Below are positions 2,970 through 64,000 of a DNA stretch of 64,000 nucleotides, in pieces (positions within the stretch are counted from its first letter, which is position 1; every line of letters starts with the position of its first letter). A program made the translations under genes and the position numbers. Source of the stretch: Struthio camelus (taxonomy: Eukaryota > Chordata > Aves > Struthioniformes > Struthionidae); assembly GCF_040807025.1 (NCBI RefSeq), contig NC_090951.1, forward strand, positions 30,345,573-30,409,572, read 5' to 3'. The notes below the pieces were generated by a model that had not been told where the DNA came from, made no database searches, and saw only the letters and a program-made list of their open reading frames with translations.

Positions 2970-28560
<25,591 letters not shown>

Positions 28561-28572
28561 ACCCGCCCATCG

Positions 28573-29620
28573 CAGGCCCCGGGGCTGCCCCCGGCCCCCC
28601 CCCGCAGCCCCGTCCCCTGCCTCGCCCCGACCCCCGCACCCCCCCGCACCGCCCGGCCCCCCCCCCGCAGCCCCGTCCCCTGCCTCGCCCCGACCCCCCG
28701 CACCCCCCCGCACCGCCCGGCCCCCCCCCCCGCATCCCCCGTCCCCTGCCTCGCCCCGACCCCCGCACCCCCCGCACCGCCCGGCCCCCCCCCCGCAGCC
28801 CCGTCCCCTGCCTCGCCCCGACCCCCCTCACCCCCCCGCACCGCCCGGCCCCCCCCCCCGCATCCCCCGTCCCCTGCCTCGCCCCGACCCCCCGCACCCC
28901 CCGCACCGCCCGGCCCCCCCCCGCAGCCCCGTCCCCTGCCTCGACCCGACCCCCGCACCCCCCCGCACCCCCCGGCCCCCCCCCGCATCCCCGTCCCCTG
29001 CCTCGCCCCGACCCCCGCACCCCCCGGCCCCCCCCAGCCCCCCCCCCGCAGCCCCGTCCCCTGCCTCGCCCCGACCCCCCGCACCCCCCGCACCCCCGGC
29101 CCCCCCCTCGCATCCCCCGTCCCCTGCCTCGCCCCGACCCCCCGCAACTTCCGCACCCCCCGGCCCCCCCCCGCATCCCCGTCCCCTGCCTCGCCCCGAC
29201 CCCCCGCACCCCCCGCACCCCCCGGCCCCCCCCTCGCATCCCCCGTCCCCTGCCTCGCCCCGACCCCCCGCACCCCCCGCACCCCCGGCCCCCCCCTCGC
29301 ATCCCCCGTCCCCTGCCTCGCCCCGACCCCCCGCAACTTCCGCACCCCCCGGCCCCCCCTCGCATCCCCCGTCCCCTGCCTCGCCCCGACCCCCCGCAAC
29401 TTCCGCACCCCCCGGCCCCCCCCTCGCATCCCCCGTCCCCTGCCTCGCCCCGACCCCCCGCACCCCCCGGCACCGCCCGGCCCCCCCCTCACATCCCCCG
29501 TCCCCTGCCTCGCTCCAACCCCCCGCACCCCCCGGCACCCCCCGGCACCCCCCTCGCATCCCCGTCCCCTGCCTCGCCCGACCCCCTGCACCCCCCGGCA
29601 CCCCCCTCAGCCCGTCTCCC
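28573..29620. repeat. GC-rich minisatellite, about 16 copies of a 60-66 bp unit
   Basis: The string gtcccctgcctcgccccgac recurs about 16 times at spacings near 63 bp (first near 28612, last near 29562), separated by C-runs and gcaccccccgcaccgcccgg variants. Copies 9 and 12-13 share a cgcaacttccgc variant, which points to recent multi-unit duplication. The minus strand carries many runs of four or more G, so quadruplex formation is plausible. Because the period is near a multiple of three, all frames stay open over long spans; these frames are not genes. Confidence 0.93.
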
Positions 29621-38437: not shown

Positions 38438-39015
38438 GGGAGGAGGGGGGAGAGGGAGGGAGAGCGTATAGGGGGAGGGAGGGAGGGAGAGAGAGAGAGC
38501 GCGAGTGTGGGGGGAGGGAGGGGGAGAGGGGGGAGAGAGGGAGAGAGAGAGGGAGAGAAAGAGAGGGAGGGGGAGGGGGAGAGAGGGGAGAGAGGGAGGG
38601 GGAGAGAGGGGGAGAGAGGGGGAGAGAGAGGGAGGGGAGAGAGAGGGGGGAGAGGGGGAGAGAGGGGAGAGAGGGAGGGGGAGAGAGGGGGAGAGAGGGG
38701 GAGAGAGAGGGAGGGGAGAGAGGGGGGAGAGGGGGAGAGAGAGGGGGAGAGGGGGGAAAGAGAGGGGGGGAGAGAGTGTGAGAGTGTATGCTGGGGGAGG
38801 GAGAGGGAGAGGTGGAGGGGAGAGAGGGAGGGGGGAGGGGGGAGAGAGAGGGAGAGAGAGGGAGGGGGGAGAGAGGGGGGAGAGAGAGAGCGTGAGAGTG
38901 TTGGGGGAGGGAGAGGGAGAGAGGGGAGACAGAGAGCGTGGGGGGGATGGAGGAGGGGAGAAAGAGAGGGAGGGGGAGAGAGAGAGAGTGGGGGGGAGGG
39001 AGAGAGGGAGAGGGA
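38438..39015. repeat. Polypurine (GGGAGA)n tract, about 580 bp
   Basis: The plus strand is almost pure G and A for about 580 bp with only a few short interruptions (gcgcgagtgtg near 38498, gtgtatgctg near 38785, gcgtgagagtgttg near 38890). A block starting at 38581 repeats nearly unchanged from 38660, so 79-bp duplications have lengthened it. A mirror-like purine tract of this length can form triplex (H-) DNA. Confidence 0.95.
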
Positions 39016-39570
39016 GTGTGTGTGCGCGTGTGTGTGCATGCGTGTATGTGTGCGCGCGTCTGCGTGTGTGTATGTGTGTGTGCGTGTGTGCGTGTCTGCG
39101 TCTGTGCATGCGTGTGTGTATGTGTGTGTGCGTGTATGCGTGTTTACATGTGCGTGTGTGCATGTGCATGTGTCTGCGTGCGTGTGTGCGTGTGTATGTG
39201 TGCGTGCGTGGGTGCGTGTGCGTGCGTGGGTGCGCGAGTGTGTGCATGTGCATGTGTGTGTGCGTGCACGTGTGTGCGTGCGTGTGTGTGTGTGTATGTG
39301 TGCATGTGCGTGTGTTTGCGTGCGTGGGTGTGTGTGTGTGTATGTGTGCATGTGCGTGTGTTTGCGTGCGTGGGTGTGTGTGTCCGTGTGTGTGCGCGTA
39401 TGTGCACGTGTGCGCGCGCGTGTGCGTGTGTGTGTGTGCCTGCGTGTGTGCGTGTGTGTGCGTGTGTGTGTGTGTGTGGGCACGCGTGTGTGCGTGCGTG
39501 TGTGCACGTGTGTGTGCGCGCGCGCGTGTGTGCATGTGCGTGCGCGTGTGTGTGTGTGTGCGTGCGCGCG
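39016..39570. repeat. Alternating TG/CG tract, about 555 bp
   Basis: Continuous alternating pyrimidine-purine sequence of tgtgtgcg and tgtgcatg type. It contains a 46-bp duplication (tatgtgtgcatgtgcgtgtg at 39295 and again at 39341). Such sequence favours Z-DNA. It ends about 40 bp before the CCDC113 ATG. Confidence 0.95.
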
Positions 39571-39716: not shown

Positions 39717-42700
39717 GTAGCGGCGGGCGGGGGCCGGGCCGGGCCTGCGCCCGCGGCGGCGCACGGGGCGGGAGGGGCCTCGGGCCGGCGCGGGACCGGC
39801 GGCCGCGGCGCCGCGAAGGCCCCACCTGAGGTGACGGGGATTTTCCGGAAGCGGCGGCCTTGCTCCCACCCCGGGGCTGCTTCGCAGCCGTCTGCTGGCA
39901 ACGTTTTTTCCCTTTAGCAGCTAGCTCCCAAGGGGTGACTTCACCTGCCAGTCCAGGGAGGTGTGATGTGGCAGAGAATCCTCCCGGGGAGGCGAGGAAC
40001 AGGGACGGCCGTGCGGCCGCGTCGCCTCGGACGACTCGGGCTGGCCTGGCCAGGGCGAACCTGCCTCTCCAGGGGCTCCTTAGCACCGGGCAGCTGCGCG
40101 TGCAGCCAAAATGCTGTTGGCGCCCAGCGAGTCACTGGGTTGTCGCAGACCCTGTGCTGGGTGGTGGGTTTTTGCAAGGGATGTCTTAACTCCAGTTAGA
40201 AGAAAAATAAGGTCACTGTAAATGAAGTGTGCCTCTGAACCGGTCTTGTGGGCCTGTCACAACTTGCAGAAGCAGCGTCCCAGCCCAAGAGGAAAGGCTC
40301 TGGCTGCCTTTTCTGCATCCTGGTTTTGTGAGGGGGGGTCTGGGGCCCTCGAGTGCGTTTCAGGATGCCTGTTTTGCCCTAAATGGTTCTGGCTGTAGCA
40401 GTGTTGCCTTTACCCTTTGGCTGCGTGCAGTGACCCTGCGCTGAGCCCGGCTCTCACCCGCGAGAAGCAAAGCGTGCCTGACCCCCGCCTCTCTGCAGCC
40501 AGGCCAACGCCATGCTCAGAATCGAGATGGAAATGTTCGAAAAATGGTACCGTAAGATGGAGCCGCAAAGCCTGTCGCTCCACCTGCTGTCGGACGCATG
40601 TGACTCCTCACCAGAGATGATACAGGTACTGTTACAGAGTTAGGGCAGCAGCTGCGTGTTTGCAAGTAACTGTGTTTGCAGGTCTTCCTCCTAACATGAC
40701 TGCAACTAGCCATTCCCCTTGCTTTTTCTGCAGTTCTCCCTTTGTCCTCCCTGTCTTAAAGCTTATGTGGCAGGAGGTTTGAGGGCAGCAGTATACATAG
40801 ATTGCAGCAGATGAGCTCCTCTTGGCATCTCTCTCAGCTTGAAATGAGTCTCCAGCTATTTGAAACAGAGCGAGCAGAACAAGCTATGCTGGTGGTCGGG
40901 GAAGGTGCGCATCTGTCCCCCTGACACGCGTTATACTTAGGCTTCACAGTGAGGAACAACTTAACCTAGACACCTACTTGAAAAAAGATGCTACTGGTCT
41001 AGGTATGAGAATTTGGGCTCCCTTGCTGTTTCTGCATTCAGGCCAAGGGCCAGGCTGCCTTTTGATTTCTCTTGCAGCTGATGCTGTTTCTTCCCTATAT
41101 GACAGCACTTTGTCCTCTTGAACAGCGAGTGCCAGGGAGATCTGGAAACACTTCACACGAACACACAGCAATGAGTTAACCCCCCCAGTGCTTATTTTGA
41201 AGTAGATGTAAAATAAATAGGGAGGCTGATGCAGAGAAAGTAGGAGACTTGCCCAAGGCTGTGTGAGATCTGTGATAAGGGTGCTCCGCTCCTCCTCTTC
41301 TCCCTCTTGGGGAAGTTCCACATAGACTTAGATCTATATGCATTTGCATTCATTTACTGCTGTTGAATGCATATTGCTCTGCCCCTTTTCACTGGAGCCT
41401 GCGATGAGCCCTGAACAGACTTTTGAGCAGATTTTTGCCTCTTGGCCTGAACTTCACCTTTTCACCAGCGACTCAGTGTATAGAAGTTTAAGACCTTTTC
41501 TGGTGGAGCTCCTTTCAGCCAATATCTTGTACTAGATTTGAGCTGCTGCCTGAGTCCAAAGTAACCGCTTTCTGTTTTTTCCCAGACTGAGCCCTTGGGA
41601 ATTTTACCCTTGGCCAGATGGGAGCAGTCTCACTGTGAAGCAGCGCCTATGTTGTTGTGTCTCCTCATGAGCTGTTAATTGCTTCTGAGCGGTATTAGTT
41701 CTGAGAGCAAATTCCAGCCTCCTCCTGCTGCAGTGAGCTCAGTTCCTCAGTGTCTCTGACCCAGGCAGTTGTAGGAGACCTCATCTGTTCTACATGGGAA
41801 GTTGTAAATAATGTCCCCGTTAATTAGCATCTTCACTACAAAGAGGTGGTTTACCTGCTCAGGTAAAGTCCTAGTGTTGGCTTTAACCTATAGCCCTGGA
41901 TTTGCCTGTTGGATTGAATTGAAAGTGCTTGTGTAGGAGGGTTTTGTGGGTAGATGAGAGGACACATGGGGCAGCCCAGGTGTGGCCATGCATTATCCCT
42001 GCTCTGGAGATGTCCCCTTGTCCTTGCTGTAAACTGGAATCCGTCTAACATGTGGCCCAGGAGATTATTATATTTTTGAATACGGGAAAATACAGTAACA
42101 TTTGGTCAGGGCTGGTTTTCTAATGGCATCTGCATTGTTCCTTGGTGGTTGCAGACACGTGGCAGGTACAAATCCAAGTCGCGTGGTCCAACAGACCGTT
42201 TTGTAGGCCTGACAGTGGAGCAGAAATGTGAGCTGGCTGAGCGGGAGCTGGAAGAGACAAAGGATGAGATTCAGAGGCTGAAGGAGGACTCTGAGCAGAC
42301 TATACAAAACCTCGAGGTATGGCTCGCCAGGGACATTAGGATCACCAAGGTGTCAAACAGTTTTGTTACTTTTCACACCTCTTTCAATATGCCAGCCCTC
42401 ATGCCAGAGAGACAGACTTGTTTGGCAAGGGCTGTTCATAGCAGAGCACTGCTATGAGTGATCCTGAATTGAGGGTGGGAGCCAGTACCTCACCTCACCC
42501 TTTTCTTGAGGGCAAACACATGAATAGAGTGGTCCCCAGTCTCTAAAGCTACATTTTATTATAACACAAACTAATAAAAATGCAGACTAGAAGACTTTTA
42601 AATAAAGAAACTCAGCTCTGCTGTGTTAGATGGAAGAAATAGATGCTTGAAAGCAAAATCTCCTTTTTGTCTGTTTCTTGAAGGTCCTTTTTGTCAGACA

Positions 42701-47869: not shown

Positions 47870-48349
47870 TCATGTAAAATAACATGTAAAATAACAAAAC
47901 AGGAAGAGAGGAACAGCAATCATTTCCCCAAGCACCTGAGGCTGGTATGAATGTCCATTGGAGATGGGAAGCTTTTCCCCCCTGTAGCAGTCATAGTGTT
48001 CTGGTCCTTTGTGGGTTCTGGCCCTACCTGGCCCATCCTCAGATGAGTTCAGGCGTGTCTTTTCCTGCTTGAGGTTGGAACCATCTTCCTGAAATACTCT
48101 CACTGCTAGTTTGAAAGCTTCTTCCCACTCTTCAGGGGGAGCCTGCAGAACAGCTCTCGCTCTGACTAGTGTGGGGAACACAGGAGCTCCTGCCCTTTCT
48201 GTGGTGGCCAAGATCCAGTCGCTGTAGTAGGACACTATCGTGTACAAGAATGGTCCATAGCATCTCATGCCGCCCTCACTGAGCACTCCTTTCAGGACCC
48301 ATTTCTCAGTACCCTTAATCTGACACATGACAGGGTTGCCTGGGTCACC
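47870..48349 (-). CDS. PRSS54: PRSS54 coding exon 5 and stop
   Basis: Residues 203-361 and [23 protein letters not shown], the end of the protease fold ([14 protein letters not shown]), then the low-complexity extension and a hydrophobic end. The last eight codons are two copies of a 12-nt unit (Cys-Tyr-Phe-Thr twice). Confidence 0.92.
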
Positions 48350-51038
48350 CTTTGAAAGACAAAAAGGCAGGGTTAGATCACCACAGCCCGATTTCCCGCC
48401 TGCCATTGTTCTTGCATCTGGTAGACTTCACTGGAGTGAAAGGAGGGCAAGTCGCATCAGTTCCTTCCTTTATTGTCACTGACAGCAAAGCACCACTGAG
48501 TCAGGGGCTGGCTGTCTTTGGGCTGATAGAAGACACCATTCCTGGGTGCCCCAGATGAAGTGACCAGGCTCTTGGGGGATCCACAAGCCCCTGACTGTCA
48601 GCCTAGCCCCATGCCTGACCTCTCTGTACATGCCACAAGGAATCCCTGTCTGCTTTGCCTTCCAGCGATCAAGCGAGATGCTCCCTGGCATTGGCCATGT
48701 CAAAGGGCCCTTGGAAATAAGCCATGTGGCCTTGTCAGTAAAAGAGGCTCAGAGACCAGAGCAGCACCCCACAGCCTACAGAGACACGGTTTTTCCCTCA
48801 ACCTGCAGGGAGACGGATGTCACACATTTAGGCAGAGTCTCCCACGCCTGCTATTTGCAAGCTGTGCTGAAGGGATCTTTTCCTGTAAGGATCGAGCAGA
48901 AGAGACCCAACAAGTGTTTTGGCTGCTCTCCCAGCCTTGAGTCAGAGTTGTGCAGAATGGGGGAGAACAGGGGAAGAAGTGGTTTGGCTAGATGTCTGCC
49001 CAGTTTGGGTTGGCGCTGCATGTTCCTTACCAAGCAGCCTGTCACATTATCGGAGTCCCTGTGGCTGCAGCACTCGGTTGTAGTGATCCTTTTCAGTGGG
49101 CAGGGATCCACATCCACCACAGAGATCATCCTCAGAAAGCCACCGCAGCACTTCCCCCTGGCTGGCCAAGAGATCCAATTAGCTCTTTGTCCTGGACAGA
49201 CCCTCGCCTCCAGAAAACAGGAATGGGCGACTGGCTGGTATTTCTTGTTCCTGAGACACATGGAGCAAAGACGAGCTCTGTCTGCTTTGCTCCCATTAGC
49301 AGTGTTGGAGGGGGGGAGTGGAGAAGCAGCTGTCTACCCTGTCAGGGAGGGTGGGGGGACTCTGGTTGCCATAGGATCAGGGGGTTACCTGCCATGGGAT
49401 GGAGCCAGCCCGAGACCCAGCAGTTCACGAGGTCTGACTTAGAAAGGCTTCTCTGGGGGAAGCAGATGGGCTGAACGGTGTCGTTGAACTCCAGCGGGGT
49501 GGCTGTCCTGAGCAGAGCTATGTTATTGTAGAGCGTGATCTTGTCGAAGTCCTCGTGGGGGATGATGGAGCTGATCCAATACTGGGGCTGGTCCTCCCAT
49601 CGCCTCTTCATGTCACTTAGCCCAACCACGGCCAACACCTGCTGCCTGCAGAGGTGGCCAGGAGGGGAGAAAAAGGCAAGGGCTCACCTGTCTTTATAGA
49701 CCACAGTAGAGGGGTGACCGGCGACTGCCGGCTGAAGCAGTGTTTCTGCAGAGTGATGCCATGGGCTTAGATATGTTGCATAAAGCAGGGCAGGGCCTGA
49801 GGGCGTGGGGAGGGTTTGGGGGAGTGCTCTGGGAGGGGGAGCCAGCCTTGACACAGGCTGTGTTAATGTCATATAGTTGAAGCAGGCCCTAATGTGACAG
49901 TCCTGTCCCTGTGCCCAGGGCCCAGGTGACCTCCCAGAGGGGGGTACCTGGCACATTCACACCAGTCCTTTTTCAGCTCGGTTCTCGCTGCCAAAGAGGG
50001 GAATCACAAGCCCTGTGTCTGAGGCTCCCACATCCCTCCTGGGCACAGGGCTTGTGATGGGACACATCATGTCTGGGAAGGGACATGCTGGGCCCTGGAT
50101 GGGTAGCCATCTGGCAGCCTTGTTTGTGAAGGCTGCCAAGGAGGACCCGCTAGGGGAGGGTTTTCCTTGCCTCAGCTGGAAGTGGTGGAGAGGAGAGCAG
50201 GTGAAACTGTGAGGGCTGTTCCCAAGCTGCCTACAAAAAGACCTGCTGATGAACCTAGCAAAGTGGGAGCTGGGGAGATCCTGGATGGAAACAAAAGCCT
50301 GGTTCAAACTGTGCCCCTGACTCTGATTTCAGGGCAATTCTTCCGGCTGCTGCCTCTGGACAGTGACAAACCCCTCCTGATCGTTCAGAGGTGTTTTTAT
50401 CTCCTGCAAATCCCTGAGTCTTGCCCAGGGGCAGGGGGGGTGCAGAGCACCTCTCAGGCTCTAGAGCGGGATACCCAAGGCACGGACCTGCTCTGCAGCC
50501 TGGACGCAACGCTAAGGAGCCAGTGCTCACTCAGGATGGAGCCGAAGGCCAGGTGGTCATGCTGCGGGTCCTGCAGTGCCACCACCCACGGGAACTGGGC
50601 CACAGTGGCAAACTCCTGTGTTGATCGCGAGGGGGACACGGTGGCCTGGATCCCACAGGCTGCAGGGCAAACGTGGGGCATGTTGCTGGGTGCATGTGGC
50701 CCTGCACCTCTTCTGCTCTCTTTGCTCTGATTCCCTCTTGTCCCCAAGGCTACCTCTGCTTCCCCTTCTCTCTGCACTCCTCCTTTTTCATTTTCCTGTC
50801 TCTTTCTTCCCTGGCAGTGGCAAGCTGCTGAGACCCATGCTGGTCCTCCAGGACCTGCATCCTCCCGGCTGTGGCTGTCCCAGATGCTGATCTTGCCTGG
50901 GACTGATGCCAGCAGCACCCACGATCGGTCACCATCAGGGCCAACTTGGTGGCACAAGGTACGCAAGGATCAGATCACGCTACTTTACTCACCTGCCACA
51001 GTGGACTGGGACAGACACAGCAACACGAGACCTCGCAT
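47870..51038 (-). CDS. PRSS54: Inactive serine protease 54, complete, 5 coding exons
   Basis: Secreted or surface-bound trypsin-fold pseudoprotease, testis-linked in mammals. Exons (minus strand): 51038-50993, 50659-50488, 49645-49389, 49161-49031, 48349-47870; 1086 nt, 361 residues (human about 395). Signal peptide [15 protein letters not shown], then an S1-like domain: [51 protein letters not shown]. The triad is gone: Ser68 for His57, Asn114 for Asp102, Pro205 for Ser195 (GDPGNP for GDSGGP). The Cys42-Cys58 pair is missing too (Ser56, Arg69). Human PRSS54 has lost the same three catalytic residues. The C-terminal EHYDCYRGE and [20 protein letters not shown] match the human YYDYYGGE and LYQPEEIILVSFVLVFF ends, including the hydrophobic tail. 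The domain is followed by a long non-protease extension. Convergent with CCDC113, as in mammals. Confidence 0.93.
49031..49161 (-). CDS. PRSS54: PRSS54 coding exon 4
   Basis: Residues 159-202: [20 protein letters not shown] to NVTGCL, matching the human block around VKDLDMCPLYKLQKTEC. Frame requires the acceptor ggccag directly before CCAGG. Donor gtaagg. Confidence 0.9.
49389..49645 (-). CDS. PRSS54: PRSS54 coding exon 3
   Basis: Residues 73-158 plus one base: [44 protein letters not shown] and [12 protein letters not shown]. The Asp102 position is Asn114. Acceptor ctctgcag, donor gtaacc. Confidence 0.92.
50488..50659 (-). CDS. PRSS54: PRSS54 coding exon 2
   Basis: Residues 16-72 plus part of Arg73: [10 protein letters not shown] to [14 protein letters not shown]. 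Contains the lost His57 position (Ser68). Acceptor ccctgcag; donor gtccgt is weak at +3 and +4 but needed for frame. Confidence 0.88.
50993..51038 (-). CDS. PRSS54: PRSS54 coding exon 1 (signal peptide)
   Basis: 46 nt, residues 1-15 plus one base: [15 protein letters not shown], aligning with human MRGVLLVLLGLLYSS. Donor gtgagt. The joined codon G+CC gives Ala16 before Cys17. Confidence 0.82.
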
Positions 51039-54000
51039 GGCCCCGGCCCACCAAGGAGCTGGGGCCATGAGGCCAGGGCCTCGCTTCCCTCCCCCTCCAC
51101 CAGGAGAGGGGGAAACTGTGCGCTGGGTGCCTGGCTGCAGCCTGCCCCCAGGGGCTTTTCGTGCCCATGCCAAGTGTGCAGGGCTGCTTTCCCTCCCCAG
51201 CGCTCGGGCCCTGCACCCAGGCGCTGGCTGGGGCCGGGAGTCAGGGATGCCCATTCCCAGCTCCCTGCCTCCCAGCCCCTCTCCCTGGCCCTTTTCCTGC
51301 TGAGCTCTGCCTGCTCCATCACCACCCTGCCAGGATCCGGCCTGCTCCGCATTCCCCCTTTGCTCGGCGCCCCAACACCTCTCCAGTGCCCTGTCCATGG
51401 CTGTGCTGTGCGGTGTCTCTCCGGCTGCGGGCTGCCGAGGCCCCACTGCTGAGGCCCCGCTCCCAGAGGCAGCAGAACATGGGCGCAATCTGCTCTGTTA
51501 GCTCAGTGTCGCCATGGCGGCCCATGGGACCCAGCAGCCGGCCGCTGGGAGGCCGTGCAGTGGTGGTGATCGGCAGCTCCCATTGTGGGGCCAGGCCAGC
51601 TTGCAAGTCCCTGTTCAGAGAGAGAGGTTCCCGAAAGGCTGCTGCAGTGGGAGAAGACATGATGATGCTGGGAGAAGAGGGGTCAGATGCTGGGATCACT
51701 GCCCATGTGCAAGGAGGATCTCCCTGGGGTGCAAGTGCCCTGAGAAGGCACCTGGCAGAGACTCTCATGGTGCATGTATGTGTGCACAAAAATGATCTTT
51801 GATACCCAGCTCCTGCCCCAGGGGTGCAGTGGGGTGGTCTCTCCCAAGGACAGCTCAGCCTGCCTGGGAGCTTCCTCGCAGCATGGCCACGTGCCAGGGT
51901 CTCTGGGCACACTGCTCCGGCCTGCAGGGAGAGGCAAGGGCAGTGAGAGCAAGAGGGAGCCCTGGTGCTGTGGAAGGGGGCTTCTGAGGGACCCTGAAAC
52001 CCTGAGGGAGGTTAGGGAACCTGCAGGGCAGCAGGACCTGGTGTAGGGGCACAGCCAGGCTACAGCAGCCAGCGGCTGGCCACTCCTGCAAGCAAGCCAA
52101 GGGTGGCAGGCAGCATGCCAGTGGGGAATGGGAAATCCCTTCCTAGCTCACGAGAGGCCAGACACAGCTTTGGAGAGCGGTATAGAGAAGGTGGGGAGGT
52201 GTGAGGGACATGCAAGCTCCTCCTTTCTGTTGAGGAAGATAAAACCATCAAGGAAGAGAAATGACAGTAGTGCTAGTATGCATTAATTAATGACCATGGG
52301 CCCCCTGATGAAAGGAGCTTGGGAAGGAGAAGCCAGGGGGAGGCAAGAAAGCAAAGGTGCTGGGTCCAGGAAAAAACGTGGTCAGGGCTGGCCAAAGGAA
52401 TGGGGCATGTCCTCCTTGCAAAGGTGGCTCTGGAGCAGCCAGCAAGAGCCCTCCCCACAGCGGGGGGCTCCCAGAGTGCAGGTTATCCATGGGCATCTTT
52501 TCTCCCTAGCAAGGCATATGGTGGCTGTGGGTATGCACACCCAGGCCAGTGCCTTGGATGCACGCTGCGATATTGAGGACAAGCATGGCCAAACAGAAGG
52601 AAAGTGATGCTGGGAGAAGGCTACACAACATGCATGGAGGAAAATGGAGGTCCAAGAACTTGTTTAAACTTCACATAGATGGAGGCAGTGTCATCTGAAC
52701 TGATTTCCTCCCAGCCTTTGAATACATGTTTCTTGTACACAGAATTAGCTGGAGGCAGGGTCTATGCTGTGTTCTGCTTAGGACAGAAGCACCCAGGGAA
52801 ACCTTACAAAGAGGATGGTTGTTTTCCTCTCCCTGGATATAGCTGGTCCTGCATGTAAGAAATTCAGCGTTCTCCTCTCTGTTAGTGCTTATCTGCCCTG
52901 CTGATAAGGGCCTTTCGTGTGTATTATCCCTGGCTCTTGTGATGTTGTGTTTGAAATGCCTTGGAAATCAGCTGGGAGGCAGCTGATGATCCACAGGCCC
53001 ATTTGCAGCCCATTTGTGCCAAAAGGGACCACTTGATCTGCAAGAAATGAGAAAAATATTTTTAAGAAGTGGATTTCGCCCTGCATTCCCTGAGAGGGGT
53101 GCTGCTCCGGGTCTGATCCTCAGGCACCAGCAGGGCTATTCCAGCATGATGCCGATGCCACTGCAAGAGTATTTCCAAAGATCACGCTTGTACCCGGCAC
53201 TTGACACCGCCTGAGCCTAAAGTGCTTGGCAGCCGCTCCACTGACCCATTGGTGCCCTCTCCTGACTCACTGAGTGTGACTTGAGTTATTTGCCATTATC
53301 TGGATCCACAAGGATCAAAGCCAACCGGCCTGAGACCACTGCAGGGTGCTGGTAGAACCAAGATCAGTCCCTCTGGAAGCACAGCCCGCATGGTGCTCGT
53401 CTAGGGTCCACCACGTTGGCCAGGCTGGGGATACCAGTACCCATGCAGCAGTCCCCATGGGCAGCACTAGACCCTTGCCTTGGCCTGCTCGAGCATCGTC
53501 CTTCACCCCAAGGACCAGCCGCCTCCTTGTTGCTGCTGCTGGGAGATGGGCAACTCTCTTGCAATGAACCTTGGCCCGCTGGCAGCCTGGCCACAGCCTG
53601 TGAACTAACAAGGTTTCAGCCCCATGGTTAAAGAAGCCAGCCTGATCCTGCACAGAGACAAAGCCCAAAGCCTGCCTCTGGCTCTGCACACGCAGAGCTG
53701 AACACGTTGATTTTCACGAGCCTGCACAAAGCCTTCCTTGTGCAGGAGGGAAGGGCTGTGCGGATCCAGCCAGACAAGTGCTCTCCTAGCCTGCATGTCT
53801 CCTGATGCTCCATCATTTTTATTCTTTGCTAGATTGTTCCTAGTGCCAAGAAAAATGTAACAAGTAAAAGCATCTGATAAAAATCTATTGACCACAGCCA
53901 AACCGGTCCACGTAACACAGCCTTAGCAGCTTCAGACACATGTCCACTGAGTTTTCCACCTAGGAAAACAAAGGCTGTGTCATAGTTACCACACTATCAG

Positions 54001-57000
54001 TACTTTGATTAAAGTTTGCATTATCAGAACATAGGGAGATGTCTGAGAAATGATTCCAACTTCCTTCTCTGAACCTGGTTTCCCATTGTGCAGTGACAAG
54101 GCTGTGCCCTGCCTCTTAAAACATCTCCTCAGCATTCTGTGTTTCTCCTCACCACTGGCCTTAGCACTGAGGCCCTTATTCTCAGGTTGGCAGGGAAGCC
54201 TGTAGATTGGCACCAACCCCTTCCAGCTGGGTGCCCTGCAGGAATGATGCACTTTGTCTTCCGGTGGGTATGTGGTGGGTGCGTACGTGTCACTCGGTGA
54301 CTTTCAGAAGGTTTCAATTTTCCTGGCAGCCTCCTGGTTTAAAGCCTATTTGGTTAAGAAGCAAAGACCAAAAATCATGCATGGCTGGATGTACCTTTCT
54401 CCTGCAGTTTCCATAGGGATTACCGAAGAACTGTATGGGAAAACAACTTTTAGCTACTGCTGCTTTCAAACTTCTGTCTCTAAGGCAAAAAATGTGAACC
54501 CTTTATGAGTAATCCCTTAAGATTTTTAGTGCCATGATGGATGGTTTTGGTTCTGTGCTGAAGGCAGTGGCTGCAATGGAGGCTCCCATGGAGAAGGCAT
54601 GCATGGTATGGGCAGGTCACGTAGCAGGACACAAGGCAGAATGAGCTCCCCACCATACTCCTCTTGATTGACATGTTTCTATAAGTATAGAACACATGAG
54701 GAACACATCTAACACCTAGAGACAATGGTTTGTGCCTTCCTCAGAGGTGGTGAGCTGGGACTGTGTGGCAAGTAATGCACGACCCTAGGCAAGGACAGCT
54801 GCTGCTCAGGAGGTCTGCTACACAGCTTGTTTAGCCAGCTCCATGGTTTGAAAACATCTCTGGGTGGCAACTTTGCTTCCTTATCCCTGCCTGCAACAGC
54901 CTTGGCAGGGCACTGTTCCTCATGCAATGATGCATGAAGCTAAGGTGCACAGGCTGCAGCAGCTCAGTGGAGCTACTTGGCCTTTATGGAGTTTGCAGGG
55001 AGCAGCCTGATGATGGTGAGGGCACAGAGAGGCCCATGAGACATTTTGTGCATTGGCTCAATACCTTTTGAAGGACCCTGGAGCCACTGGAACCTTAAGA
55101 TCCCTTCCAATCCTGTCCTCTATGATATCCTCTTATCCTCTTCTCCCAACGAGAACAGGGGGTAGCAAAAAAAAAAAAAAAAAAAGAGACAGAAGGTAAA
55201 AGAAATAGAAGGCAGATGAGGAGATGTATAATGAGGCCTTGGTTCAACATTATAACAATGGTGAAAAGAGCTGATCCAGTATAAACTCACTCTGCTGGCT
55301 CAGATTTGCTTAGGCATGTTGGTGGGTTAATGTTTCATTGGGAGGCTTTATGCCAGATCAAGTATCAGCCACCCTTTCGCAGGCAGTGTCCAAGCCTAAA
55401 GCTGCAACCCTTCAGTGTTATCTGTTCAGCACAGATGAGACTGTGTATGGCTAGCTCATCCAACAGACCGCAGATCCATCACCAGCAAGGGTGAGCCACA
55501 TTATTAGAGGCTGCAATGTTTCAGAAGCTTTTGACTGTATTTGTTCAAGGATCTTGTTCGTGTAATACTGAAGCATATAGCCAACCTCTAACCGTTGCGG
55601 GTTTTGCTGAAAGCATCGCCTGAGAAGGCTGGTGACAGACCTGCTAGACTCCCCTCCCCCCACCCCGAACCAGCCTAAGGGCTGAGCTCAAGCCAGCACG
55701 TCAGGTGAAAGAGCTCCTTCACATTTTGTACCATCCACAAAGTCCTCTCTGGGACATGCTCAGCCCTGCTGCCTGTAGAGTTGCGCCAGAGACTTTACTG
55801 ACTTTGAAAGATGTACTGAACTGGTCTTTCCCCACTCTAGCCAGTCTCAGTCATGCCGGAGCTCAGCACTTCTCAAAGTCACACTGAATTTGGCCCCCAC
55901 AGTGAGATGCACTGCTTGTCTCTTGGTCTACCTTGCTTCGCTTGGGCCGATGTGTGATGAGAACAGTGAGACAGCAGAGGCTGGTGCTGGAGTTGTTGGT
56001 ACTGGGCCACCCTTGGGTGCTTGCCTGCTCGGAGATGCTGCAAGGGATTCCAGCTCTGGCCAGCCGGCCGCTGAGGCAGTGTATGCAGGACATGAAGTGA
56101 TCATCTCCTAATTTACAGCGCTTATTCAAGGAGATAAAGGCAGCTGTGGGCAGCATTGCATCTACATGGCTGTTGGCACTCTCAGTCCTGCTCGTCTCCA
56201 GAGGCAGTAATTACAGCAGTCATTGCTGGCATGGCCAAATTAAACAATCCAGAACTGGTGCTTACAACACTCACGGCTTACTGCGTGCCTCATTCAGGCA
56301 CATCATTCAAGTTGGCTTCATCCCATTTAACTCAGAGTACTGAACCGAGGCATCCAGGCTAGCAGCCTGATCATCCTGGTGTCCTCAAAGAGATAGGCAG
56401 CCCCCCGGGGTAAGTCCACCCGTGGGACCTGAGTCACCTCGGGCACTTGTCTGCATCCCTCTCCAGTCTGCCAAAGGTACATTTAGGTTGAAGATGCTAT
56501 TAAATTTAGGTGGGGTGGACAAGCTCAGCCCTAACTGCACTGTTCCTGTTGCGTGTTTTTGCAATATGTCTAAAAAGCATCAGCCAGGAGTGAGGAGCCA
56601 TGCAAACACATGGAAAACAGGCAGTCCCTTCCCTTGGGGACTCCCAGCCAGAGCAAATCTCATTGTTGTAATGTAAGGGCTCAACCCTTCTCATAGTCAA
56701 CTTGCGTGCCAATATTAAGACAGTTGCCAGAAGCTGGAGTCAGCTGCGCTGGTGGATGTGGGGAGCGCTGGATGAGGCAAGGAGATGGTAAAATAGCTGT
56801 GCCTTGTTCAGGATGTGCTCAAGCACACACTTCATGTGCTTCTGAGAAGGGACCTTTCTTGCACTGCAGTCAGCTGCCACACCCTAGTTCCTGCAAATGC
56901 TGCTTGTTTCCCTGAGCCGAGGCAGCACAGGCCCACAGGGCTCGATATAGGTGGTCTGAAGCCACAGTTTGACAATACAGGGCATCCAGTGACACTGTGG

Positions 57001-57953
57001 CTCAAGGGCTTCAGAGGCATTGTTATTGCTGCTGTAACTTCCCACCACTGAGCCGTGGCCTCGCTGTCCTTCTGCATGGGAAGGGTGAGGCACACGTCCT
57101 CGGGAGATGAGCTGGCAGGCAGGAGGCAGCTGGGCATTCATTAGCCACAGCCACTGTCCTACTGCTGATTAGAGCCCCAATTCTGCCACCCTCAATTACA
57201 CTATTCGATGGTATTCTGCCAGCAGTGCTGCTGGTTTTAATGGGGCTGCTTAGGGACTAGAGGAAATATTCAACATCTGTGAGGGTGGCAGAACCAGCCC
57301 AAATGATTATACCTGCTAGAAAGTGGTCACTTGGAATAAAAGGAAAGGAGAAATGTTAATAAACCTCAGAATTTCCTATTGGGAGCAGAAATGTCTTTGC
57401 TTCACCTTAGTATTTTTCAAACAGTGGGAGAGTGTTCTCTTGCAATAGCCTTCTGTTCTATTGACATTATCTCCTCATTAACCCAATTTTACCATTTAAA
57501 TCAGTGGGGGGAGAAAACTGTATTTGTTTAACTGCTTTTTAAAATCAGTTTTTCAGGTGAGATGTTGTAACAAACAGCAATATTTTAATAGGAAGAAGTA
57601 ATTTTTACAGCTTGTATTTATATTCAGCAGAATTTTCAGTGGAAGAGCTGTTTCTCAATTGCCCAGGAACCTTGTGCAGAGAAAAACTTTTACACGAGAG
57701 GTGACTAAAGGCAAGGATTCCTGTAGCTCTCACAACTCTGCTCTGCTCATTAACCTTCAATATGGATAGTGGCCAGCCTGCAATTCTCTGTCTTTAGCTC
57801 TGCAGCCGGATAGAGTTTTACATCCTAGGTAGATCCTTCCATATTAAAGATGAGGGTACTTCAAACTTGGGGTTGTATCTCAAGGTATGTTTTGTTACAC
57901 CTGCTGCGTAGAAAGGAAGACAGAACGTACAGGGCAACAAGGTTCTGGGCAGG
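51039..57953. other. Intergenic DNA between PRSS54 and the DGAT1-like gene
   Basis: 6.9 kb without an exon I can assign. It may include the PRSS54 5' UTR and promoter (GC-rich to about 51.5 kb) and the 3' UTR of the DGAT1-like gene (nearest minus-strand ATTAAA at 57588-57583). A CR1-like end lies near 55070-55135 and a run of 19 A at 55167-55185. In mammals GINS3 and NDRG4 follow PRSS54; neither is seen here. Confidence 0.55.
55070..55135 (+). mobile_element. CR1 LINE 3'-end remnant
   Basis: The run aaccttaagatcccttccaa followed by tcctgtcctctatgat resembles the terminal CR1 sequence (TTAAGGTCCCTTCCAACCC ... TTCTATGAT). Only about the last 50 bp is recognisable; the body is too diverged or missing. 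Confidence 0.5.
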
Positions 57954-58121
57954 TCAGAAGAAAAACAGCCTCCAAGTTGAGTCCTTCCGGTGGTGAAGGA
58001 TGTAATAGTCATGGAAGTACAGCAGCACCGTGAGAGGGGGCCCCAGGACCAGGCTGATCCACATGAGGATATTACCGTAGCTGCCACCAAAAAGCCATTT
58101 CAGCAAGCAAGACAGTGGGAT
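57954..58121 (-). CDS. DGAT1-like last coding exon and stop
   Basis: 168 nt, 55 residues and TGA. IPLSCLLKWLFGGSYGNILM then the membrane segment WISLVLGPPLTVLLYFHDYY, aligned to human [20 protein letters not shown]. The tail after HDYYIL is basic then Phe-rich and unlike the DGAT1 end. Acceptor ccctacag. Confidence 0.88.
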   Translation of the reverse strand: MPLSCLLKWLFGGSYGNILMWISLVLGPPLTVLLYFHDYYILHHRKDSTWRLFFF

Positions 58122-61100
58122 CTGTAGGGAAAAGCAAACAGCAGTCACTAATAAAAGTCTGGTTGGTCATTCATACCATTCTCTAAGGGATATGTGTGCC
58201 CTTAACTAGAGGGCAGATCCATACTGAATTTGTTTTTCTATTATAAGGATGATGACTCAATTTATTTCTAGGGGTGCCCTTGCCAAAGGGCTCTGGGCCT
58301 TTGCGCTTCATAATAAAACAATTAAAAACCCCATTAATGGGACCACCTGCTAAAATCTTAGTAGGCTAGCACAGAAAGAGAAAGAAAGGGTCATATATGC
58401 AGAGCCAAGAGTTGCCAAACTTACAGGCACCATAGGAATGGAAAGATTTTGAAATGATTTTTAAAGGCTGAAAGAGATTAGATGGAAAGGATTTGAGAAG
58501 GCAATGTGTTTTGCATTCAGAGACCATCAGTGTTAGGTCATTACACTGAGGAAATCTGCCCCCTAACAATGCTCAAAAGCTTTCAAATTAGTGGCAGGCT
58601 TAGCACAGAGGGGGTGATCTAGATGGGGGATCTCCATCCTCATAGGGCTAGTTACAAAACCCTTTGGACTCTGTTCTCATTTGCTGAGAAAGATTTGACA
58701 AGTTCAGGTATAAATGACTCAAAGATCTGGTTTATTTTTTCTCACCTCTCTAGTGATTGTAGACAGTACACAAAACTCCCCAAAAATGAGGATACGTTTT
58801 CTTGATGGATTTACAAATGGAGGAGTCTGGATGCATGGCTTATTTTTTGTGACAGGAATGAAGGAGGCTCTTCACTACCCACCAAGAATTATATTGCCAT
58901 GGAGCGGTCCATTTTGAAACCCATCATTTACAGTCTTGCCTGTCTTATACATGCCAGAAAGTCAAAATTGATGGCTTTAATTGCTAGCTTAAAACTACAA
59001 TCCTTGTGCTTTACTTGTTAAATATCATTAAAATAACAGTACCAAGAGTTTTGTGAGCAGTGCTCTGACAGATTTAGGTCTGCCAGCAGATTCTTCATTT
59101 TAGTGTCAATGTCTTCCCATACCTGAGAGAGCATAACAATAAACATCCAAAACCGGAACATCTTCAATGGGATGGCGATTAGATACTGGAAAAGACAAGA
59201 TCAAGAGTCTGACATGCACTGGTCTGTGTGATCGTATCTTGTATTTTGCTCTGTACAATAAGTAAGGGGTAGTAGAGCATGAAGGGCCCAGTGCTGGTGA
59301 AACTTCATTGACAGTTTTTCTTCATATAGGAGTCAAACTTAAGTTCAAAGGAATTCAAAAGGGGAAAGAAAGCCTTGAGAGTCACAGCTTCTGACAAGCC
59401 ACCAGGCCATGACCCTGTTCCTAGGGAGCGGAGCAAAACAGAGCAGGACAGCCAAGACTTCTGTCCTAAGCGTGAGCTTTGTTCATCTGATGCTCCCATC
59501 ACTTTGGTATCTAAATGGCAAGAATCAGGAGTATATCGACACTCCAGTCCCTGTCTTGGATAGAGGCCCACTGGCTTTCCAGAGGTTCCTCATAGCAATG
59601 TCTGGAAGCCACAAAGTAATGTTCTTGGCATTAAGTGACAGTATATTCTGTGCTACAGAGCCTGCTGTCCTGAGAAGAGGAGATGCCATACAGAGTGATG
59701 ACTCTTCCAGTTTCTGCCTCCATCCTCGGCTATGCCCAGTTACTCTGCATCATGGATCTGAGGACAAGAGAGGCTCCTAAATTTGCCTGGGTGATATATC
59801 CCTAATCTCTGTGGGAAGTGAGCTCTTCTGCCATTTCCAAACCTGCAGGATGCCTGGAGACATGAAAGACTGACATACTCCCAGACATACTCCCCCCTTT
59901 CATCTGACTCCATGCTGTTTGCAGCCACTGTTTCCTATTTCCTGGGAAACTAAAAGCTTTTCTTCAAAGATCAGCTGGAGGTGTCTCCCCTAACCGTTGA
60001 AATTTCTAGCTTGACCTAAGGTTTACTCTAAACTCAAGCTAGCAGGCTGACAGCGAGGGCAGATGGAAGGTCAAGAACTGCACGCACTCAAGCGTAAGTA
60101 ATGCAGTGGGGACCCAACCACTCAGCACTGTTAATACAAGCATGCTGGGGTGCTAATCTAATCAGTTTGTGAAGCTCTAGTGCTATTTTGCAATGTGACT
60201 CCTCTCACTTGAACTTACATCAGTATTCAAAACTATTTGCTATCTAACTCAACCTCAAACCTTAGTCCTTTAGTCTAGATGCTGGTCTCAGCACAAGACA
60301 TCCAGCTTGGATTGGGATCTGTAAGCAACTAGAGCAACTCTCAAAATCTCAGAAGTCTCTCTTAAAGCTATGAGTTTAAGTGACTGAAAGTCTCTGGCAG
60401 CATCAGCTAAGTATGCCGTGATGGCTGCTACTGTGACCTACCTCGAAGAAACATGCAGAGAGTAGAAACACAGCCAGTCGGGCCTGCCACTTGTCATAAC
60501 CGTGATGCAGTAAGGGCTTGTAGACGTGTCTATTTACACAGCACAGAACAATGTGAAGAAGCTTGATAAATTGTTCCCCGTGCACTGCTAGTCATTAACA
60601 TCAGGATTAATCACACAGAGCAAGATAATGGGGTTTATATCAATCAGCCACCAAAGCCAAAGGAGTCGCTCCAAACATGCACACAAATAAGTGAAAGCAG
60701 CAGCTCACAGAAGAGCTACAGTGACTTGCAGAAACACTGTTCATTCTCACCTTGATCTAAAATCTTGGTAGTGACTGATGGAACTGGGGAAGAAGAGGCT
60801 GCTCTGAGCTGCTGGGTAGGTATGCTGCCATGAAATTAAGTCTAAACCTTCACAGGCTGCCCAGGATCCTGTGTGCTTCCATACAGGATGGGTTTTAACC
60901 CTTCCTTTGCATCTTTTACTGCACACACATTAGAAAGCTATTCATAAAGAAGGGTGAGATATTACAAAAAAATGATCATTTTTAAGTTAGGCTCTTTGTC
61001 CCTACCAAGGGCACTGAAAACCAGCAACCTGCTTCTGGTTTTCAGGAGTGCCGAGTACTTTGTGGATGCCATAAAAATAGCTGAGGAGTTTATTTAAAAA

Positions 61101-62242
61101 TCAAAACCAGGCCATTTATGTGTCTACCTATTTAGGTAGCCTAAGGAGCCTAATTTTATGAACTACTTTTTTAAAGCTCAGCAATAGCTTTTGTCTGTCG
61201 GGAGGTGACAGACACAAGGATCCTCCAGAAAATGCCTGCGACTTTGTAGAGGTGGAAGTCAGTATCAGAGAGTCATGAATGTTGCCAGTCCTGATCTCTT
61301 CACTTAAAAGGCTCAGTTCTTACACTGCTGCCTTTCTCACTTTGCTCAGCAGCCAAGCAGGAGCAAAGCTGATTTGTGTCCAACTCACAGGCTTTCACTG
61401 GGGTGGCAGGTGACTGCTGCTTTCTCCTGGAAGCTTTTGGGCTGAAATGCATAGGCATTCTTTAACTCTCCGAATCTGCATGGGAAATGCCATAAAAACA
61501 GCCTCCCAAAGGCACTGCTGGAAAGGAACATTTTCTGTCTATTTATAGTTTTATAGGAGCCACCTTCCAGCTGAAATATTAAGGAATTCCTTGGAATCTG
61601 CCTCCTTCCTAGCCAGGTCATAGAGATGCTCACAGCCTGGGCTTCCTGGACTTTTCCAAGATTTTGGCGTGAAGAAGTAGAGTGGGTGACACAAGAAGCA
61701 TTTATTCCCTGATAGGAGTCCTGATTCCTGCCCTCATAGTTTTCTGCAGTGTGATTTTCTGCTTAGATCCCTCCCCCGAGGAAGGCTAAGATTTAGCTTA
61801 CAGGGGCTACAATACTATTTCTGAAGAGACCATTCCCAGCAGTACAAACTACATGCTTACAGCAACTTTGAAGCTGTTAAATTAACAAAGTTTATTCATT
61901 TCAGTCAGCACCCTGCTATTCCTTTGAGACTACACTAACATGTAAAGCTCGCTAATTAATTACTTTAAATGTCAAGGTTTAATTACAATGCCTCAGAGTT
62001 AAATTGCAAGCCAGCCAAATTTTTGGGGCCATACAGGAGACAGACAGACATATTCTGAGCAAGTTAATCCTTCAAAAAAGATTATTATTATTAATGCTAT
62101 TGATTCCCCAGCAGTGATGGTTCATCTTTCAAATACAGCGCATGTTAACTGGAAAGTGCAGAAGGCAGTGTTGTACCTGTCTAGCCATCTGTGAGCCGGG
62201 ATATTCCATCTGGACCAGAACTGTAAGACTGAGTCTGCATTC
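57954..62242 (-). CDS. DGAT1-like MBOAT acyltransferase, C-terminal four exons (5' part off the window)
   Basis: Relative of diacylglycerol O-acyltransferase 1, an ER multi-pass enzyme that makes triacylglycerol from diacylglycerol and acyl-CoA. Exons (minus strand): 62242-62177, 60529-60442, 59185-59123, 58121-57954. They join in frame through phases 1, 2, 0, 0 with canonical splice sites and give about 127 C-terminal residues. Matches to human DGAT1 (about half identical by eye): SVLQFWSRWNIPAHRW, RHVYKPLLHHG, KWQARLAVFLLSACFFE, YLIAIPLKMFRFW, GNILMWISLVLGPPL and HDYYIL. The Asn of WNIP and the nearby His (human N378, H382) are kept. The catalytic MBOAT histidine (human H415, FFHEY) is Phe here (CFFEY). 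The last residues RKDSTWRLFFF differ from DGAT1. No upstream exon is found to 64000. Less likely a SOAT, whose C-terminus differs. Active enzyme, pseudo-enzyme and early pseudogene cannot be told apart from this part. Confidence 0.85.
59123..59185 (-). CDS. DGAT1-like exon, YLIAIPLKMFRFW block
   Basis: 63 nt, 21 residues, YLIAIPLKMFRFWMFIVMLS then Q, aligned to human [20 protein letters not shown]. Hydrophobic membrane segment. Acceptor tttccag, donor gtatgg, phase 0 at both ends. Confidence 0.88.
60442..60529 (-). CDS. DGAT1-like exon with the altered active-site motif
   Basis: 88 nt, completing Arg, then HVYKPLLHHGYDKWQARLAV to SACFFE. The codon aligned with DGAT1 His415 is TTC (60447-60445). 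Acceptor gtaaatag is a modest site, donor gtaggt. Confidence 0.87.
61861..62040. other. AT-rich block with clustered TAATTA-type sites
   Basis: Contains ctaattaattac, aaggtttaattac and gttaaattaac within about 160 bp in the DGAT1-like intron. These are homeodomain-type core sequences and could mark a conserved non-coding element, but AT-rich DNA yields such cores by chance. Confidence 0.25.
62177..62242 (-). CDS. DGAT1-like exon, FYxDWWN end and WNIP motif
   Basis: 66 nt, NADSVLQFWSRWNIPAHRWL then D and part of R. Begins with the third base of a codon that would be the last Trp of the FYxDWWN motif in DGAT1. Acceptor ccttgcag, donor gtacaa. Confidence 0.85.
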
Positions 62243-64000
62243 CTGCAAGGACAGAAGGAGTAGAACCAGTCGTCTTTTTATAACGCGAGAGGCACCATGC
62301 ACCCATCCTACCACACAGACATCCTTCCCCATGGGTGAGGTAAAGGTGTATCAAATTGCATTCGGGCTGGTTATCACAGCACAACTGAAAATCTTATCGT
62401 AAGAAAACTGGATTCCCTGTCACCCTTGGAGTCTGAAATGAAGACAACGCTCGTTTGGGGCAGTGGGGCCAAATAACCCAAAGTGGATGCTCCATGTACT
62501 CACACAGGCTGCCAATTTGAATGTGAGCAGTACTCCACATTTTTCCACATTTAGAATTTAGAGACCATGACCTCAAAGACATGATAACGCATACAATGTT
62601 GATGTGCTAAATCACCAAACTTACAGCTGATAAATTATTTTTGGCCCTTGTCAGCTGTGAGGGAGTTTCAGGCTTAATTATAAATGTGTGACTGAAGTTC
62701 TGAGTACAGACGGAGAGCCCCAGAAAGGCAGCAGCTGTTGATTTCAGCGAAACTGAGTGTAGGAAAGCGTTGCAGAGATTAGCTGCTACCTGTAGATATT
62801 TATCAGGAGGACTAAAGGAAACCTCCTCTGCCAGACTCCACACCTAACCTACTGTTCGCCTGGTCCATGATGTATGTTCAGTGCCGTGCAGCAGACGATA
62901 AGATCAGGTTGAACATTTGAGCAGTCTGTAATCTGAATGGCACCGTTCCTGATTTCCCTTTTAAAGCATTGGCAGTCTGAGAGAACTGGAACAGTCAGTC
63001 AGTCAAGGTAACAAATGTCTGACTGATGAGAGATACCAGCACACATTGCCTTATCATTGACTCTGCCAGGATATAAACATTTCATCTTCCTGACAACGCT
63101 TTCATCCGTCAAAGAGGATGAAACATCCGACGGAGCATCTCCTGGTTACACTCCAGGGACGGTAATTTTGCAGTTCTCTTAAATGCCGTGTCCATATTGG
63201 TAACTTACATTTAACTTATACTGTCTTAATAATTAAAAATCGGGACTTAGAAGATCATGGCATGGTTTCATCTCGTAATATCTACTGGCTTCCTTAGAGC
63301 CAGCTCTGGAGTGATGTTTCACTAGAGAAAAGAAAAAAAAATCTGCCCTTTGTGAAAAACCTGAACATTGTGAACTCTAAAGAGTCAGACATCAGAAGAA
63401 TATTTTAAAAAGCTACAGCCTGCTGAAAAAAAGATCTTTATGATTTCTAAGCCAGCTTCATGACTTTTGGGACTTGATTCATTATTTTCTAAATATATTG
63501 TTGTCAAAGCTGTAATTTAGCTCATAAAATGTTTGTTGTTCTAGGGATAACAACATTTCCTGGGTTAATAGATTCTGTGACCTCCTATGTTTTGGTTATT
63601 TTTAAAAATCAGTCACTGGCAGCCAGCTGGAGAGTGCTCTATTAGTGAACATCCCTGGAGAGCAGAGACTTTTAACCCTTGATATCTTTTTGGCATAGAG
63701 GATAGGGCAAGGACACAGAGCTCCTCACTGAACCTTGGAAGAGAAGAGAACTACAATGACACAGCCTAAATCGTGCTGTGCAGCACCCCTGTTGACCAAT
63801 TTCCTTGGCACAGAGCTCCTCGTGTCCTGTGTCTGCTCTAAAATCAGGGTGCCAGGTCAGGGTGGGCAGTCTGACCTGCACCTTGCACTGGAGTGTCACC
63901 TGCTGCATCTCTAGCTGATTTTTGCATTTCATATGAAGTAATATTAAAATATTAGCATTACATATTAACATGTTAGAATGTATTTTACGATTTTGTAATG
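62243..64000 (-). other. Intron of the DGAT1-like gene to the window edge
   Basis: I looked for the preceding DGAT1 exon (hydrophobic segment ending in FYRDWW) on the minus strand and found none, so the upstream exons lie beyond 64000. Nothing else is recognisable in this stretch. Confidence 0.6.

Follow-up and report, generated by a model that had tools for sequence, protein, structure and literature searches.

What remains of an enzyme of the DGAT1 type once its catalytic histidine has been replaced? This question is raised by a window of 64,000 nucleotides from the ostrich Struthio camelus (assembly GCF_040807025.1, contig NC_090951.1, positions 30,345,573 to 30,409,572 of the forward strand), whose minus strand encodes the C-terminal part of a DGAT1 paralogue, called DGAT1L here, with a phenylalanine at the position of human His415. 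The loss of this histidine shared by all orthologues found, the conservation of the protein and the retention of tunnel residues together suggest that DGAT1L is probably a long-conserved pseudoenzyme of the MBOAT family, similar in kind to HHATL. With good confidence, we consider its state to be non-catalytic.

Gene structure and identity

DGAT1L extends beyond the window upstream, and the window contains four coding exons (all C-terminal and on the minus strand) that together encode 127 residues. The fourth from last (62177-62242; one codon-completing base, then NADSVLQFWSRWNIPAHRWLD(R)) holds the equivalents of W374, W377, N378 and H382. The third from last (60442-60529; (R)HVYKPLLHHGYDKWQARLAVFLLSACFFE) carries the His415 site, occupied by a TTC phenylalanine codon (60445-60447, minus strand); it ends in QARLAVFLLSACFFE and is spliced, with AG/GT borders, to YLIAIPLKMFRFW of the second from last (59123-59185; YLIAIPLKMFRFWMFIVMLSQ). 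The last coding exon (57954-58121) reads IPLSCLLKWLFGG...TWRLFFF followed by the stop codon. All three introns between them are of the GT-AG type and an AG precedes exon 62177-62242, so that the good splice sites and open frame claimed by the earlier note are borne out for the four exons of the window and a frame or splice error is ruled out. Neither a human query nor the proteins of ostrich and tinamou revealed any additional DGAT1L exon in 62243-64000.

The spliced tail is 100% identical to the end of two Struthio camelus protein records (P0001, P0002) whose database name is 'diacylglycerol O-acyltransferase 1 isoform X8/X5'. It matches human DGAT1 (PDB 6vp0; phmmer E 8.7e-42) over 117 residues without any gap, with the phenylalanine opposite His415, which confirms the identification of exon 60442-60529 as DGAT1-like with Phe (TTC) instead of His. 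It also matches the Pfam MBOAT domain (PF03062, E 1.3e-20), which full-length orthologues carry as well. Over the same 117 residues, 61 (52%) are identical to human DGAT1, versus 104/117 for the true DGAT1 of the turtle Pelodiscus.

Distribution of the histidine replacement

Three protein searches provided 151 distinct records. Two of the listings comprised the best 120 of 1426 and the best 120 of 1029 matches, so weak or short DGAT1L orthologues may be missing. Among the matches listed, DGAT1L is represented by at least 23 records from at least 20 species: three palaeognaths (ostrich, the tinamou Eudromia and emu), the turtles Pelodiscus, Chelonia, Malaclemys, Emys, Mauremys and Gopherus, Alligator, four Neoaves (penguin, stork, ibis and eagle), the frogs Ascaphus and Discoglossus, the caecilians Rhinatrema (a record cut at its C-terminus but counted), Geotrypetes and Microcaecilia, and the newt Lissotriton. 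None of the matches listed was a DGAT1L from a mammal, squamate, fish or shark, and these groups presumably lack the gene. Records are labelled DGAT1 or DGAT1-like in the databases, with plain 'DGAT1' for ostrich and some turtles.

The His415 column of the 151-record alignment contains H 129, Y 12, F 5, C 4 and one gap. The gap corresponds to a second Gopherus record without that exon, and the apparent 'His' of the ibis record P0017 is a misplacement, since its sequence reads ACFCK; it was consequently counted as Cys. Histidine is thus found in none of the 22 DGAT1L records that have the exon (0/20 species found), against 128/128 of the other records. These 128 were named DGAT1 according to their tree position (31 in a 44-row tree, all 128 in a 144-row FastTree), and about sixteen of them are 'lgn' records. 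By species, the site is Tyr in eleven (five turtles, alligator, frogs and caecilians), Phe in four (ostrich, tinamou, emu and newt) and Cys in five (the tortoise Gopherus and the four Neoaves). Among the 20 species found, no His-bearing orthologue contradicts the earlier note, and a change specific to ostrich is ruled out. Going from a His codon to a Phe codon takes two or more substitutions, and the other 19 species lack His as well, so that a sequencing error is excluded; a single substitution suffices for each of the steps from His to Tyr, from Tyr to Phe and from Tyr to Cys. Finally, Pelodiscus, Lissotriton, Geotrypetes and Microcaecilia each hold both DGAT1L and a His-bearing DGAT1 (in Pelodiscus, the separate record P0116).

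Phylogeny and timing

In the 44-row tree, DGAT1L (13 rows) and DGAT1 (31 rows) lie on opposite sides of a single branch with support 100/100, and the 144-row FastTree (128 DGAT1 and 16 DGAT1L) gives the same two-sided split, where long branches meet. The DGAT1L stem is long, and in both trees DGAT1L falls outside the clade of DGAT1 orthologues. Together with the four species holding both genes, this establishes DGAT1L as a paralogue rather than DGAT1 itself. The longest end branch of the 44-row tree is that of the newt DGAT1-like record (P0128).

Parsimony on a 25-row tree, which includes decayed copies and in which sauropsid relationships are badly resolved, requires five changes among H, Y, F and C. 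With DGAT1 carrying His, and the copies of frogs, caecilians and turtles carrying Tyr, the change from His to Tyr came first. As His is absent from all DGAT1L species found and present throughout the DGAT1 side, its loss predates the divergence of amphibians and amniotes. The duplication itself may predate jawed vertebrates or be no older than tetrapods, since approximately unbiased (AU) tests reject neither a tetrapod-only duplication (p 0.313) nor a bony-vertebrate duplication (p 0.208). Human DGAT1 lies beside HSF1 at 8q24 and the DGAT1L locus corresponds to human 16q21; the two may be a whole-genome-duplication pair.

These results also bear on whether the ostrich sequence is an assembly, sequencing or annotation artefact of true DGAT1, as the NCBI name of its record, simply DGAT1, might suggest. 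The probability of this is negligible and we count it as already refuted: the tail is far less similar to human DGAT1 than turtle DGAT1 is, Pelodiscus has its separate His-bearing DGAT1, the locus is that of CCDC113 and PRSS54, His is absent from every species found and the split between the two groups is fully supported.

Conservation and decay

Over the columns of the ostrich record, Pelodiscus DGAT1L is identical to that of ostrich at 346/401 positions (86.3%) and to that of tinamou at 84.8%. Turtle DGAT1 is 86.2 and 89.1% identical to the DGAT1 of two lizards and 80.0-87.3% identical to that of five birds, a comparison weakened by the fact that these are all Neoaves with no palaeognath, one record being partial and one low-quality. 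From turtle to ostrich, the copy without His is thus about as conserved as the enzyme. At the protein level, DGAT1L has been conserved over the long term without its catalytic His in the 20 species found.

One alternative is a decaying gene, in which relaxed selection allowed the loss of His and the ostrich copy is now disappearing. It draws on the neoavian records (penguin, stork, ibis and eagle), which are short, fused, disrupted or flagged as low quality and have end branches of 0.19-0.46 on a stem of 0.2 in the 25-row tree (where the eagle row has 39% of its columns filled), and on the alligator model, which lacks some exons, and the long emu branch. The ostrich end branch, however, is 0.016 in the same tree, the four ostrich exons have sound splice sites and frame, the proteins predicted for turtles, ostrich, tinamou, frogs and caecilians have retained their length and their similarity, and the loss of His is common to all species found. 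We therefore regard decay as unlikely. The early decay that had been offered as an alternative fits the neoavian copies and not the ostrich gene; a plain pseudogene in ostrich is rejected by the turtle identity and the short branch.

Active-site residues and predicted structure

Residues were counted in human numbering in 17 DGAT1L records from 16 species, against the 128 DGAT1s; the four neoavian copies, the exon-lacking Gopherus record and the second ostrich isoform were left aside. DGAT1L keeps W374, W377, N378, H382, Y390 and K400 in 17/17 records, S411 in 16/17, Q437 in 15/16 and an acidic residue at position 416 (Glu in 15 and Asp in one of 16 records, with a gap in alligator). Conversely, the DGAT1 majority residue is never present at H415, Q465 (Pro, Thr, Ile or Asn in DGAT1L), V381, C385, F413 and T371. 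DGAT1 itself is invariant (128/128) at H415, N378, E416, Q437, Q465, V381, C385 and F413. DGAT1L thus has the MBOAT profile match and the reaction-chamber Asn (N378) but not the MBOAT catalytic His, and from the DGAT1 active-site set (H415, E416, N378, Q437, Q465) it has replaced H415 and Q465 and largely kept the others. The earlier claim that other signature residues are kept is right for most acyl-CoA-handling residues, with the change of emphasis that Q465, V381, C385, F413 and T371 are replaced in addition to His415. Over the whole protein, DGAT1 has 184 columns with an invariance of 98% or more. Of these, 76 are fully kept in DGAT1L (13 records) and 25 are replaced in every record, 13 of the latter within the last 117 residues. 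The newt record P0128, with Phe at the His site, has FYQDWWE for the FYxDWWN motif and Asp for E416; reading its WWE as loss of the catalytic Asn was rejected, because the motif Asn maps to N366 and N378 is kept in all 17 records.

According to an excerpt of PMC10227072, the catalytic residues of DGAT1 are His415 and Asn378. Excerpts of PMC12008735 indicate that mutants of H415 and E416 nearly abolish DGAT1 activity, that those of W377, N378, H382 and S411 lose more than 80% in one study and that those of N378, Q437 and Q465 lose 50-75% in another.

The main rival to a pseudoenzyme is an active acyltransferase with altered chemistry, in which Tyr, H382 or E416 would serve as base in the Tyr lineages, perhaps with another acceptor, while activity has gone or is disappearing in the lineages with Phe or Cys. 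Tyr is indeed present in 11 species across frogs, caecilians and turtles, N378, H382, S411 and E416 mostly remain in place, the decayed-looking neoavian copies account for four of the five Cys species, and two of the Phe species, newt and emu, have long branches. Against this, ostrich and tinamou combine Phe with the high identity to Pelodiscus given above, and Q465, V381, C385 and F413 are replaced in addition to H415. We consider such an enzyme improbable, but worth keeping in mind.

The predicted fold of DGAT1L matches that of DGAT1, and turtle DGAT1L shows whole-length homology to five DGAT1s with 46-48% identity. A first model was dropped (mean predicted local distance difference test score, pLDDT, 60.8; Foldseek root-mean-square deviation, rmsd, 18 A).

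Several observations weigh against a conserved pseudoenzyme. The retained model, built from a 142-row alignment, has a mean pLDDT of 73.9 and a weaker Foldseek superposition (rmsd 8.1 A, template modelling score 0.67 by query), and its agreement with the DGAT1 fold is partly built in because 128 of the 142 rows are DGAT1s. Retention of E416, N378 and H382 equally fits an enzyme with changed chemistry. In the neoavian copies, W374, N378 and Y390 are altered in single records (the decayed eagle record has Asp at N378) and S411 and E416 in two. Between turtle and emu, the identity of DGAT1L falls to 78.6%, and emu has a long branch. The amphibian copies evolve faster than DGAT1 (Geotrypetes-Microcaecilia distance 0.384 vs 0.120, identity 81.8% vs 91.3%; turtle-caecilian identity 55.0% vs 76.7%). 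The Emys record, which was counted, is labelled LOW QUALITY PROTEIN. Finally, the gene is patchily distributed and decayed in Neoaves, and probably in alligator, which shows that several lineages can do without it. The emu record (P0004) has a branch of 0.21, versus 0.023 for ostrich, in the 44-row tree, possibly reflecting relaxed constraint or a poor gene model.

Comparison with known proteins

DGAT1L resembles DGAT1 (PDB 6vp0/6vyi/6vz1) in whole-length homology, predicted fold and, largely, W377, N378, H382, Y390, K400, S411, E416 and Q437; it differs by the lack of His415, by the replacement of Q465, V381, C385, F413 and T371 and by its separate clade. To our knowledge, HHATL is the sole precedent for a vertebrate MBOAT paralogue that persists without His. 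Like HHATL, DGAT1L lacks the catalytic His and coexists with a sister enzyme that is active, but HHATL is related to the protein acyltransferase HHAT whereas DGAT1L derives from DGAT1, and HHATL is kept in mammals whereas no mammalian DGAT1L occurs among the matches listed. In HHATL the His is replaced by Leu, and an excerpt of PMC5831804 describes the protein as a negative regulator of the Hedgehog pathway. The sterol-using SOAT1 and SOAT2 (ACAT) are more distant (22-24% identity in alignments) and have the His, as an excerpt of PMC10213974 shows for ACAT2/SOAT2. Two DGAT1 copies in one vertebrate are also known as zebrafish dgat1a and dgat1b, which stem from the teleost-specific genome duplication according to an excerpt of PMC11663968; unlike DGAT1L, the fish DGAT1s examined keep His and sit on the DGAT1 side. 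Searches of open-licence PMC (PubMed Central) full texts, bird gene loss included, yielded no paper on this vertebrate DGAT1 paralogue, which is already in databases as DGAT1 or DGAT1-like. The string 'DGAT1L' in one paper means DGAT1-Low and not this paralogue.

Genomic neighbourhood

The nearest gene found downstream of DGAT1L, on the same strand, is PRSS54 (inactive serine protease 54), recognised by aligning the alligator record P0015 to the window (exon at 50487-50663; further matches at 49384-49647, 49031-49177 and 47888-48349, all on the minus strand). Two other exons serve as synteny markers, with coordinates counted along the open reading frame: a CCDC113/CFAP263 exon (42170-42319, plus strand; PDB 9fqr E 4e-08, 8j07 E 2.4e-05) and an exon of a casein kinase II catalytic subunit (27557-27679, minus strand; alpha' (CSNK2A2) 68.8 bits vs 67.3 for alpha). 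The alligator (P0015) and golden eagle (P0016) records named 'inactive serine protease 54' fuse DGAT1L exons with PRSS54; since they map to both genes of the window (47888-62242), the two genes appear adjacent in these species too. The fusions are either read-through transcripts or gene-model errors. A GC-rich tandem array (28588-29606; period 63, 16 copies) lies immediately upstream of this casein kinase II exon in the sense of the minus strand. The interval from there to the CCDC113 exon contains a purine-rich array and, after it, a long GT-type repeat (38514-39568).

Proposed role and significance

We propose that a tetrapod DGAT1 paralogue located beside PRSS54 lost its catalytic His before the amphibian-amniote split, first to Tyr, and that the site became Phe in ostrich, tinamou and emu. 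Such a protein would be unable to make triacylglycerol by the DGAT1 reaction but would still fold like DGAT1 and bind acyl-CoA and perhaps diacylglycerol. DGAT1 itself is a dimer. From the fold and the HHATL precedent, we infer that DGAT1L most likely binds lipid and/or pairs with DGAT1, thereby tuning neutral-lipid synthesis; as a specific mechanism, a DGAT1 partner or lipid sensor is put forward tentatively. Of the catalytically dead DGAT1 relative with another role suggested by the earlier note, the paralogue without catalytic His is thus well founded, while the regulator or lipid-binder role stays a matter of inference.

More broadly, it is conceivable, though short of probable, that a second DGAT1-type protein from early vertebrates or tetrapods gave up its His before amphibians and amniotes separated and was kept in neutral-lipid synthesis as a sensor or a lipid-binding partner, with mammals, squamates and most birds lacking it. 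Its retention would then span about 350 million years. Because the gene is filed as plain 'DGAT1' in ostrich and some turtles, lipid studies there may mistake a probable dead copy for the enzyme. DGAT1 is a drug target whose chemistry is centred on one histidine, and DGAT1L would offer a natural test of what the DGAT1 fold does beyond catalysis: acyl-CoA binding, dimer control and lipid passage.
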